Below are positions 1 to 21,404 of a stretch of DNA of 64,000 nt, one piece after another. The stretch spans positions 254,530-318,529 of the forward strand of contig JAGRDS010000002.1 of the NCBI GenBank assembly GCA_020446945.1. The letters run 5' to 3'. Numbering within the stretch: the stretch's first letter is position 1; the number at the start of each line of letters is the position of its first letter. The stretch is from Parvularculaceae bacterium. Lineage in GTDB: Bacteria; Pseudomonadota; Alphaproteobacteria; Caulobacterales; Parvularculaceae. Below the pieces are notes generated by a model that did no database searches, had not been told where the DNA came from, and saw only the letters and a list, made by a program, of their open reading frames with translations. The translations under genes were made by a program, and so were the position numbers.

Positions 1-514
1 CCTTGGTGAGCGTCGTGCCCTTGCGGAGCGAAAGAAGCTCCAGCATCTGGTATTCCTTACCCGTCAGGTGAACGCGCTGGCCGGCGACTTCGACCGTCTT
101 GGCGTCGAGATTGACGGTAAGATTGCCCGTCGTGATAACTGACTGGGAATGTCCCTTGGAACGGCGTACGATCGCGTGAATGCGCGCGACAAGCTCGTCC
201 TTGTGGAAAGGCTTCGTCATATAGTCGTCAGCACCGAAGCCGAGACCGCGAACTTTCGTTTCGATATCGCCTTGACCGGTCAGGATCAGGATCGGCGTGT
301 TGACCTTGGCGACGCGCAAGGATTTGAGCACGTCGAAGCCGGTCATATCCGGAAGGTTAAGGTCAAGAAGGATGATGTCGTAGTCATAGACCTTGCCGAG
401 ATCGACGCCTTCTTCCCCCAGATCGGTCGTGTAGACGTTGAAGCCGTCTGATTTCAGCATCAGTTCGATGCTTTGTGCGGTGGCGCCGTCATCTTCAATC
501 AGCAAAACCCGCAT
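1..514 (-). CDS. ctrA: Cell-cycle response regulator CtrA (partial, C-terminus outside window)
   Basis: Master OmpR/PhoB-class response regulator that, when phosphorylated, activates or represses cell-cycle, flagellar and division genes at TTAA-N7-TTAA boxes. The minus strand reads from ATG at 514 into the window edge, 171 residues. A complete receiver domain is visible: acidic pair Asp8-Asp9, phospho-acceptor Asp51 in LLDLNLPDM, conserved Thr in LTGQG and Lys in MTKPF. The start of the winged-helix output domain follows ([13 protein letters not shown]) before the edge. Asp51 numbering and the short spacing between domains match CtrA rather than PhoB or OmpR. The gene is divergent from fliI, and a candidate target box lies before ftsZ in this same window. 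Confidence 0.95.
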
Positions 515-850
515 TGCCCGCTCTCCTTTGTCGCGCTCCGCCCCTGACGACAAGCGCATTTTTTGATTTGCCTTAACCAGATTTAGGTTGATTTGCTTTC
601 ATAAAGGTTAACGCGGCGCGTCGAATGCGCGCAGCTTTCACGCTCGTGTTAAGCCGCAGACAAGGTTTGTTACCCGCCGAGCGCGCAAATCCCTTGAAAT
701 CGAGGGGTCTGTTAATCGCAGACGGCTTGTCGCCCGGTTAGGATGATTCACGAGTTTACGCGAGCTTAAATGCCTGCGCGTTAAGGTCCGGCCCGAAATT
801 CAGCGGACGCGGCGGCCGGCGGGACCGGCCCTGTCCGAGATGTAGGTGCG
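515..850. promoter_or_regulatory. Divergent ctrA / fliI intergenic region
   Basis: This 336-bp gap carries no credible ORF. It is more AT-rich than the flanking genes on the ctrA side and contains several TTAA/TTAACC half-sites (near 573, 608, 649, 767 and 781), but none is paired at the exact TTAA-N7-TTAA spacing. One GATTC (a GANTC site) lies at 745-749, about 230 bp upstream of the ctrA start. In Caulobacter, ctrA has two promoters, one of them controlled by GANTC methylation; whether this site plays that role is inference. Confidence 0.4.
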
Positions 851-18264: not shown

Positions 18265-18349
18265 GATTGATCGATCGAATGCGGATAATCCTGTTATCCG
18301 CGCACGGAACGGCTGCCTAAGTCGGCGTAACAGGGCGGTGAGACCCGGA

Positions 18350-19612
18350 ATGGCCAAGAGGATCAAACCTGTCAGGGAGCGCGGTCTTGTCGCTGCGATC
18401 GACCTTGGCGGATCGAAGGCGGCTTGCGTTATCGCGCAATTGACGCCGGTGCCCGGCGGCGGGTTCGAGGCGGATGTTCTCGGCGTCGGCCAGCATGGCG
18501 GCGTTTGCCGCGACAAACGCCCGGATATCGAAGCGTCGTTGCGCGCCGCCGTCGAGGCGGCGGAGCGTATGGCCGGCGAGCGTATAAAGCGCGTTCATGT
18601 CGCCGCCGCCGGCAGATCGCTCGGCGCCCGTCGCATCTCTGTCGATCTGGACGTTTCGGGCGGCGTCGTTACCGGCGACGATGTTGCGGACTGTCTGGAG
18701 CAGGGGGCGGCGGCCGCTGCGCCCGACGGCTCCACGCCGCTTCACGCCTTGAAAATCCGGTACTCAGTCGACGGCGAACAGGCGGAGAATCCGGCCGGGC
18801 TGGCGGGCTGCGTTCTCGCGGCGGAGATGCTTGGGATCAGCGTTCGCGATTCCTACGTCGAAAATGTCGAATCCCTGCTCGCGCGCTGCGGGCTGGAGCT
18901 TGAAGAGCTGATCGCAGCGCCATGCGCCGCCGCGGAATCGGTCCTCATCGAAGATGAAAAGGAACTGGGCGTCATCCTGATCGATATCGGCGCCAGGACG
19001 ACGGAATACGCTCTTTTCGAACGCGGCGCCCTGATCGCCTGCGGCGGCGTTCCGGTCGGCGGCGATCATGTGACGCGCGATATCGCCCAGATTTTCGGCG
19101 CGCCGATCGCAAACGCCGAGCGGATAAAAACCCTTTACGGGTCGGCGCTTTCCGGCGCCGGCGACGAACACGGCATGATCGACTTTCCGCAACTCGGCGA
19201 TGAAGGCGAGGTGACGCGCCATCCGCGCGCCGAACTCATTCAGGTGATCGCGCCGCGCTTTGAAGAAATTCTGGAATTGACATTGAACGCCCTGCCGCAT
19301 TCGGGTTCGGCGCGGCGCGCGATACGCCGCGCGGTTCTGACCGGCGGCGGCAGCCTGCTTGTCGGCGCGCGCGAAACGGCGGAAAAAGTAATCGGCGTGA
19401 AAACGCGCCTCGGGCGCCCTGTCGCCCTGTCCGGGGCGCCTGAAATGGCGACCGCCCCGCAATTTTCCGTCGCCATCGGCGCCTTGCAACTGGCGGCGCG
19501 CGAGCGTTCCGAGGCGAAAGGCCGAAGCGCGCGCAATCGCGTCGGCGAATATCCGCGCGCGGCGAGCGGCGTTATCGGACAGGTCGGAGCCTGGCTGCGC
19601 GCGAATTTCTGA
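18350..19612 (+). CDS. ftsA: Cell division actin-like ATPase FtsA
   Basis: Actin-fold membrane tether for the FtsZ ring and activator of constriction. The 420-residue protein from ATG 18350 has the phosphate-1 loop AAIDLGGSKAACVI, the 1C subdomain, the second phosphate segment LIDIGARTTEYALF with the following GVPVGGDHVTRDIA, and VLTGGGSLLVGA. The C-terminal VIGQVGAWLRANF is the amphipathic membrane-targeting helix usual for FtsA. A GTG at 18338 is also in frame. An 85-bp gap separates it from ftsQ. Confidence 0.96.
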   Translation: MAKRIKPVRERGLVAAIDLGGSKAACVIAQLTPVPGGGFEADVLGVGQHGGVCRDKRPDIEASLRAAVEAAERMAGERIKRVHVAAAGRSLGARRISVDLDVSGGVVTGDDVADCLEQGAAAAAPDGSTPLHALKIRYSVDGEQAENPAGLAGCVLAAEMLGISVRDSYVENVESLLARCGLELEELIAAPCAAAESVLIEDEKELGVILIDIGARTTEYALFERGALIACGGVPVGGDHVTRDIAQIFGAPIANAERIKTLYGSALSGAGDEHGMIDFPQLGDEGEVTRHPRAELIQVIAPRFEEILELTLNALPHSGSARRAIRRAVLTGGGSLLVGARETAEKVIGVKTRLGRPVALSGAPEMATAPQFSVAIGALQLAARERSEAKGRSARNRVGEYPRAASGVIGQVGAWLRANF

Positions 19613-19662
19613 AGCGCCCGCGCGGTTCGGATTGAATCCTCGAAATTTCGCACGCGAATTCG

Positions 19663-19684
19663 CCCGAAAATTTATTTTTTCGGG
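19663..19684. repeat. Perfect hairpin between ftsA and ftsZ
   Basis: CCCGAAAA (19663-19670) pairs with TTTTCGGG (19677-19684) around a TTTATT loop. There is no U-run beyond the stem on the plus strand, so it is a weak terminator at best; it may shape the ftsZ leader or lessen readthrough from ftsA. A GAATC (GANTC) site lies just upstream at 19634-19638. Confidence 0.4.
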
Positions 19685-19759
19685 TGACAGCGAACGCGAA
19701 CGCGCCGAAGAAATTTCATGAGTCCTGTAACGGTCGGGACCGGATGGCGGCAGGCCCTG

Positions 19760-19818
19760 ATAACGCCTCATTAACCATTTGGTAACGGTTCTGAAGGATT
19801 CTTTAACATCACCTTAAC
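19760..19818. promoter_or_regulatory. Cluster of CtrA-type boxes and GANTC site before ftsZ
   Basis: A perfect TTAA-N7-TTAAC box lies at 19803-19818, 20 bp before the ftsZ ATG. Two further overlapping boxes with one mismatch each lie at 19760-19775 (ATAA-N7-TTAAC) and 19771-19786 (TTAA-N7-GTAAC). A GATTC (GANTC) site at 19797-19801 abuts the perfect box. In Caulobacter, CtrA represses ftsZ and GANTC methylation affects it; the same arrangement here, with ctrA in the same window, supports that control by inference. Confidence 0.75.
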
Positions 19819-19838: not shown

Positions 19839-21404
19839 ATGCCAATAAATCTCAGCGTGCCGGAATTGACTGAATTGAAGCCGCGGATCTCCGTGATCGG
19901 CGTCGGCGGCGCGGGCGGAAACGCCGTCAACAACATGGTCGATAGCGGTCTTGAGGGCGTCGACTTTATTGTCGCGAACACGGATGCGCAGGCGCTCGGC
20001 CAGTCGAAAGCCGAACGGCGCATACAGCTCGGCGCGCATACGACGCAGGGGCTTGGCGCGGGCTCCCTGCCGGAAGTCGGCTGCGCGGCGGCCGAAGAAA
20101 CGCTTGAAGAAATTCTCGAGCAGGTCGGCAACGCGCATATGCTTTTCGTCACCGCCGGCATGGGCGGCGGCACCGGCACCGGCGCTGCGCCTGTGATCGC
20201 AAAGGCGGCCAAGGAACGCGACATCCTCACCGTCGGCGTCGTCACGAAGCCTTTCCATTTCGAAGGCGCGCGGCGCATGAAAATCGCGCTTGCCGGTATT
20301 GAGGCGCTGCAACAGCATGTCGATACGCTGTTGATCATTCCCAACCAGAATCTCTTTTCAATCGCCAATGAAAGCACCACATTCGCCGAAGCGTTTTCGC
20401 TCGCCGACCAGGTGCTTCATTCCGGCGTTCGCGGCATTACCGATCTCATGGTGATGCCGGGCCTTATCAATCTCGACTTCAATGACGTGCGCACTGTCAT
20501 GCGCGAGATGGGCAAGGCGATGATGGGTACGGGCGAGGCGTCCGGCGACAAGCGCGCGATCGAGGCGGCGGAAGCGGCGATTTCCAATCCGTTGCTGGAT
20601 GAGGTTTCGATGAAAGGCGCCAAGGGCGTCCTGATCAACATCACCGGCTCGATGGACATGAAACTGTTCGAAGTAGACGAGGCCGCCAACCGCATTCGCG
20701 CCGAGGTTGATCCGGATGCGAACATTATCGTCGGCTCGACCTTCAATCAGGAACTTGAAGGCCGCGTTCGCGTTTCGGTCGTCGCCACAGGTATCGAGGC
20801 GATGCCGCGCGACGTTCACGGTTATCAGCAAAAGTCGAAAACGGTCGCGGTCTCCAAGCCGTGGCGCGAACCGACGCCGCAGGCGGAAACCGAGCCCGCG
20901 CCGGTTCGCGTGACGACGCCCGTTCAAACGCGCGTTGCGCCGGCGGCGCAAAATCCGCAGCCCCGGCCCAATGTCGCGCCGGACGTCGCCCCGGTCGCGG
21001 GTCGTCAGGCCGGCCATCCGCTCGCCCTGCAGGGCCAGGCCAACCCGGTCGGCGATGTCCACGAGCGTATTCGCCGTATGCTGACGGAAGGCGCCGTCGA
21101 CAATACCGGCGCGCCGCGCATGCCCGCAGCGAAACCGCTTTCGGCCGAGCCGCCGGCCGCCGCGCCCGCGCGCGGACGTCATCGCAATCCGTTCCGCGAC
21201 GCGGCGGAAGAATTGCAGCGCGCCTCCGCCGGCGCGCTTGATCTCATCAAATCCTTTGCGCCGCCTCATGAAGACGCGCCGGCGCCGCGCGTTGAAGATC
21301 ATCCGGTCCGGCCGGCCCGGACGGCGAATGGCGATCTCTTTGACGATGAAGACGACGGCGAACTTGAAATTCCGTCTTTCCTCAGAAAGAAGAAAGTCAG
21401 CTAG
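19839..21404 (+). CDS. ftsZ: Cell division GTPase FtsZ
   Basis: Tubulin-like GTPase that forms the cytokinetic ring. The 521-residue protein from ATG 19839 has the nucleotide-binding start [17 protein letters not shown], the tubulin signature [10 protein letters not shown] near residues 107-116, and the catalytic T7-loop region [12 protein letters not shown] long Pro/Ala-rich disordered linker of about 170 residues follows, then the conserved C-terminal peptide [11 protein letters not shown] that binds FtsA. The long linker is typical of alphaproteobacteria. A TTG one codon upstream is not needed. The upstream 226 bp hold CtrA-type boxes, and a strong terminator follows. Confidence 0.98.

Follow-up and report, generated by a model that had tools for sequence, protein, structure and literature searches.

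The ftsZ gene of this Parvularculaceae bacterium is preceded by a regular row of CtrA-type half-sites which, judged from the DNA sequence, is very probably a real regulatory switch of the kind known from Caulobacter. The row lies in the gap between ftsA and ftsZ within a 64,000-nucleotide stretch of genomic DNA (the window), and binding of CtrA to it is likely. In our preferred reading, to which we assign a probability of roughly 0.6, phosphorylated CtrA (CtrA~P) fills the array over the putative −35 and −10 elements and represses ftsZ, as at the hemE Ps promoter of Caulobacter crescentus, and methylation raises promoter activity.

Architecture of the ftsA–ftsZ gap

The sequence-only reading had described three CtrA-type boxes before ftsZ, namely a perfect TTAA-N7-TTAAC box at 19803–19818 and two overlapping one-mismatch boxes at 19760–19786, together with GANTC sites at 19634 and 19797. 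All of these elements were found as described, the overlapping pair resolving into 19760–19775 and 19771–19786, but both counts proved too low: a fourth box (19792–19807) and a third GANTC site (GAGTC, 19720–19724) had been overlooked. The four boxes are chained from six half-sites (ATAAC at 19760, TTAAC at 19771, GTAAC at 19782, TGAAG at 19792, TTAAC at 19803 and TTAAC at 19814), which follow one another in steps of 11, 11, 10, 11 and 11 bp; boxes A and B overlap in a common TTAAC. The features are listed in Table 1.

Table 1. Positions of genes, predicted CtrA boxes and putative promoter elements in the window.
Feature	Positions	Strand	Remarks
ctrA, first 171 codons	1..514	-	start codon at 514; continues past the left edge, into a stretch of N
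ftsA	18338..19612	+	TIGR01174, 247.9 bits; ends 226 bp before ftsZ
CtrA box A (half-sites H1-H2)	19760..19775	+	ATAACGCCTCATTAAC; 1 mismatch
Conserved ftsZ promoter core of the family	19770..19807	+	38 bp, ungapped; 50/50 genomes
CtrA box B (H2-H3)	19771..19786	+	TTAACCATTTGGTAAC; 1 mismatch; over the putative -35; family-wide
Putative -35, TTGGTA	19779..19784	+	predicted from sequence; 17 nt before the putative -10
CtrA box C (H4-H5)	19792..19807	+	TGAAGGATTCTTTAAC; 1 mismatch; over the putative -10; family-wide
GANTC (GATTC), CcrM methylation site	19797..19801	+	inside box C, between H4 and H5
Putative -10, TTTAAC	19802..19807	+	predicted from sequence; overlaps H5; first five bases invariant, 50/50
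CtrA box D (H5-H6)	19803..19818	+	TTAACATCACCTTAAC; 0 mismatches
ftsZ	19839..21404	+	start ATG 19839, not TTG 19836; TIGR00065, 405.9 bits

The start codon of ftsZ in relatives is the ATG equivalent to 19839, and transcription may begin near 19814, which would give a leader of about 25 nt. A consensus scan found no sigma-70 promoter at the array, and the putative −10 departs from a good −10 element at two positions, having neither A at position 2 nor T at position 6. The GANTC site at 19797 lies between the putative −35 and −10, just upstream of the latter; at the Caulobacter ftsZ promoter, a CGACTC motif lies between −35 and −10 (PMC3708114). No terminator was found by a scan between ftsA and ftsZ. 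Further upstream, between ftsA and the promoter, a perfect 8-bp inverted repeat without a T tail was observed (CCCGAAAA-TTTATT-TTTTCGGG, 19663–19684). A second block upstream of the promoter, at 19682–19704 (GGGTGACAGCG..CGCGAAC), recurs in varied form in several relatives of the same genus (L085, L086 and L088) but is missing in others.

The array is highly unlikely to have arisen from chance clustering of TTAA-like words, although the gap is richer in AT than its surroundings (53% GC vs 62% in the window) and would favor such words. The whole window contains 11 matches that differ from the motif at no more than one position, compared with 2.13 expected, and 6 of the 11 fall within 60 bp. The 226-bp gap holds 6 such matches vs a mean of 0.043, and none of 5000 dinucleotide shuffles reached as many. 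Chance is further refuted by the conservation of the core in 50 of 50 family genomes. Whereas the exact TTAA-N7-TTAAC motif has 26 strand-matches in the whole assembly, the exact triple half-site TAAC-N7-TAAC-N7-TAAC occurs a single time in its 2.98 Mb, at the ftsZ array. The word GANTCTTTAA was also considered as a general promoter class and rejected, since its three other matches in the genome lack the CtrA-type context of ftsZ.

Conservation of the promoter core within the family

Sixty family genomes were searched, and the region upstream of ftsZ was examined in 50, including the source genome; the other 10 were left out because ftsZ was unmatched or matched in fragments, or because the sequence upstream was too short. 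The examined relatives probably belong to the Parvularculaceae. Conservation of the boxes in close relatives, which had been proposed as a check, was confirmed: an ungapped core aligning with 19770–19807 was present in 50 of 50 genomes, starting between −68 and −194 relative to the ftsZ ATG, although these counts from sampled genomes are inflated by kinship and correspond to an effective number of about 30. Fourteen core columns are invariant, comprising TTAA of H2, AA of H3, the first T of H4, GA, and TTTAA of H5. Across the family, half-sites peak at −11, 0, 11, 21, 32 and 43 over a background of 6%. In two relatives (L101 and L104), an insertion of about 100 bp with a palindrome-like GTGATC motif separates the promoter core from the start of ftsZ.

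The individual boxes are kept unequally. Box B has at most two mismatches of eight in all 50 genomes and box C in 48, whereas box A is free of mismatches in 26 of the 50, mostly from one sister genus, and degenerate in others. Box D is perfect in 11 of 50 genomes, six of which are among the eight genus members. The end boxes are therefore lineage-specific and the middle pair common, so the family-wide boxes are B and C rather than the perfect box D. The GANTC column at 19797 is occupied in 31 of 50 genomes and is missing from most of one genus. The GANTC sites at 19634 and 19720 were not seen at matching places in the relatives inspected by eye. The suggestion that this region recreates the Caulobacter logic thus holds in part: a CtrA-type operator is kept throughout and ctrA, gcrA and ccrM are present, but with GANTC in 31 of 50 genomes, tuning by CcrM appears optional in the family.

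For the 16 genomes of two genera, tblastn of about 360–700 bp immediately upstream of ftsZ gave no FtsA match. The core is nevertheless kept in all 16, and we conclude that it belongs to ftsZ. A position weight matrix of the core matched 5 of 80 named ftsZ loci, separated from the other 75 by a wide score gap; the core is seen, for example, in the named records of Parvularcula maris and of a Parvularculaceae MAG. As nothing convincing was matched in ftsZ loci outside the family, the ungapped core is regarded as family-specific.

Proposed mechanism and alternative explanations

We propose that the ftsZ promoter has a CtrA operator built in, with box B over the −35 region and box C over the −10 region. 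Dimers of CtrA~P, a regulator of the OmpR/PhoB type, would fill the phased half-sites side by side, and the extra lineage-specific half-sites H1 and H6 would lengthen the row. At high CtrA~P, the filled row would block RNA polymerase and keep ftsZ off; removal of CtrA would release it. CcrM would methylate the GANTC lying between −35 and −10, and this mark, presumably recognized by GcrA, would raise ftsZ activity. Repression, cooperativity and the role of methylation are all inferred here. At hemE Ps, CtrA binds cooperatively and repression is strongest with both boxes intact (PMC11264516). Moreover, half-sites over −10 are characteristic of promoters that CtrA represses, and full boxes at −35 of those that it activates (PMC4287350). 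Repression is preferred because of the hemE Ps box pair and the position of half-sites over −10 at repressed promoters. In C. crescentus, CtrA regulates ftsZ and CcrM controls it, and GcrA control of ftsZ has been predicted to vary within the Caulobacterales (PMC7987155).

The main rival, which we consider possible but clearly less probable, is that CtrA activates ftsZ or acts biphasically, with box B recruiting polymerase as long as CtrA~P is low to moderate, and boxes C and D switching the promoter off only once it is high. Box B at −35 is also an activator geometry, this being the usual position of full boxes at activated promoters, and a start near 19814 would place the beginning of box B at about −43. 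At pilA, extra sites can induce and repress, and the hemE, fliQ and fliL promoters lose first repression and then activity as CtrA falls. Also counting against repression, ftsZ promoter activity in a C. crescentus mutant with less CtrA was moderately lower, not higher (PMC3751295). However, box C lies on the putative −10 and is about as conserved as box B, which favors occlusion, and C. crescentus ftsZ expression is highest in stalked and early predivisional cells and lowest in swarmer and late predivisional cells.

A rather unlikely alternative is a conserved promoter, read by sigma-70 or assisted by GcrA, in which the TTAA-like bases of the core serve as promoter elements and the CtrA matches are incidental. 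The bases between the half-sites are also conserved, which could reflect RNA polymerase or another factor; the TTGGTA-17-TTTAAC spacing fits, and GANTC adjoins the −10. Nevertheless, the positions beyond the core at which extra half-sites recur are exactly −11 and +43, and in one genus (g3) the −35 TTGGTA is poorly kept, with TTG lost, while TTAA is invariant; in other families, moreover, a CtrA box is retained near ftsZ although this core is missing. Ownership of the array by another OmpR-family regulator such as CenR, or by MucR or SciP, seems very improbable. The genome does contain seven Trans_reg_C matches, and many CtrA promoters are also targets of MucR and SciP, but the half-site and spacing are those of CtrA (TTAA-N7-TTAAC), as given by ChIP-seq in Hyphomonas neptunium (PMC7200025). 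The CenR motif is TGA-N8-TGA, of which no pair was seen in the core by inspection, and the SciP motif is of the GCGNC type.

Comparison with other families and known CtrA promoters

Sixty genomes sampled from four further families of the order were compared, and 56 of them carry a TTAA-N7-TTAA box, allowing one mismatch at most, in the 300 bp upstream of ftsZ. One of these families (f3) is taken as Caulobacteraceae because its ftsZ site is nearly identical to the published C. crescentus CtrA site CAGTTAACCGCCGATTAACGA (PMC3751295) and because it carries the CGACTC motif of PMC3708114. When the sequences of this family are aligned on their first half-site, TTAA-like half-sites appear at 0, 11 and 32 and less often at 43, a spacing like that of the array described here. 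The claim that the array has more boxes than Caulobacter is consequently only partly right, as a third and sometimes a fourth half-site stand at the same +32 and +43 spacing in f3. The 32-bp step common to both families may be inherited or convergent. The two differ in the placement of GANTC, which lies upstream of the CtrA box in the Caulobacter-type family and inside the array, between H4 and H5, in the present genome. We tentatively suggest, as an idea with a low chance of being right, that the shared 0/11/32/43 layout stayed fixed while the promoter and GANTC slid from upstream to inside the array; if true, a conserved operator with a sliding promoter would have altered the competition between methylation and CtrA.

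The ftsZ promoter of C. crescentus resembles the present one in having a TTAA-N7-TTAA box upstream of the gene, a GANTC in the promoter, and CtrA, GcrA and CcrM in the genome. A single box is listed for that promoter in the published account, whereas here box C additionally lies over the putative −10. The C. crescentus hemE Ps promoter likewise has two CtrA boxes, at −35 and over −10 (both elements being predicted in our case), but it serves another gene, and the half-sites before ftsZ are phased without a break and include a GANTC. Several CtrA boxes at one promoter also occur at C. crescentus pilA; their spacing is irregular (31, 3 and 78 bp), in contrast to the regular row at ftsZ. In H. 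neptunium, CtrA regulates ftsA, ftsK, ftsQ and ftsZ through a TTAA-N7-TTAAC motif identified by ChIP-seq (PMC7200025).

CtrA control of ftsZ is thus already described in C. crescentus and H. neptunium. Among the publications searched, we found no paper on CtrA sites at ftsZ in Parvularculaceae; the new element is the continuous phased row with a GANTC inside, conserved across the family. At the level of sequence, these data suggest that the direct control of ftsZ by CtrA established in Caulobacter is widespread among members of the order. With its several conserved and regularly spaced boxes, the promoter could serve as a test case for CtrA cooperativity and its interplay with CcrM methylation, and natural relatives without GANTC could be used for comparison.

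Regulators and other CtrA boxes in the genome

The sequence-only reading had placed ctrA 20 kb from ftsZ. The gene is real and lies about 19.3 kb away, cut by the window edge; the distance is irrelevant because the regulator is trans-acting. The best NCBIfam match of its product is NF045991 (CtrA), with 299.7 bits over 171 of 224 positions, a score below the whole-protein cut-off of 350 with the first 171 residues alone submitted, and the best structure match is CtrA (PDB 4qpj). The genome also encodes GcrA, and a protein with a RAMA domain is interpreted as CcrM. The window contains 93 GANTC sites where 381 would be expected, a roughly fourfold depletion of the kind usual where CcrM acts.

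Some of the other perfect boxes precede flagellar rod and fliL genes or lie near a fliR homologue, and some precede a DivIC/FtsB-type gene and a LysM-M23 peptidase, a gene set that fits a CtrA regulon; the remaining boxes precede genes without an obvious CtrA link. A perfect bidirectional box lies between an enolase-like gene and the DivIC/FtsB-type gene (L151 1991–2008; C58:10191–10207), making the latter a second division gene with a perfect box. The mipZ locus was considered as a co-regulated control and dropped: a single GTTAAC half-site precedes the gene, and no full CtrA box was found there when up to one mismatch was allowed. In the roughly 290 bp before ctrA (window 500–800, minus strand), several TTAA half-sites were observed, along with a one-mismatch box at 754–769 and a GANTC at 745–749, which is consistent with CtrA autoregulation. 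Finally, a one-mismatch box, TTAAGCAAAAATCAAC, is located at 2640–2655, at the end of a fliJ-like ORF and a short distance ahead of the mraZ-like gene, the first of the dcw cluster.
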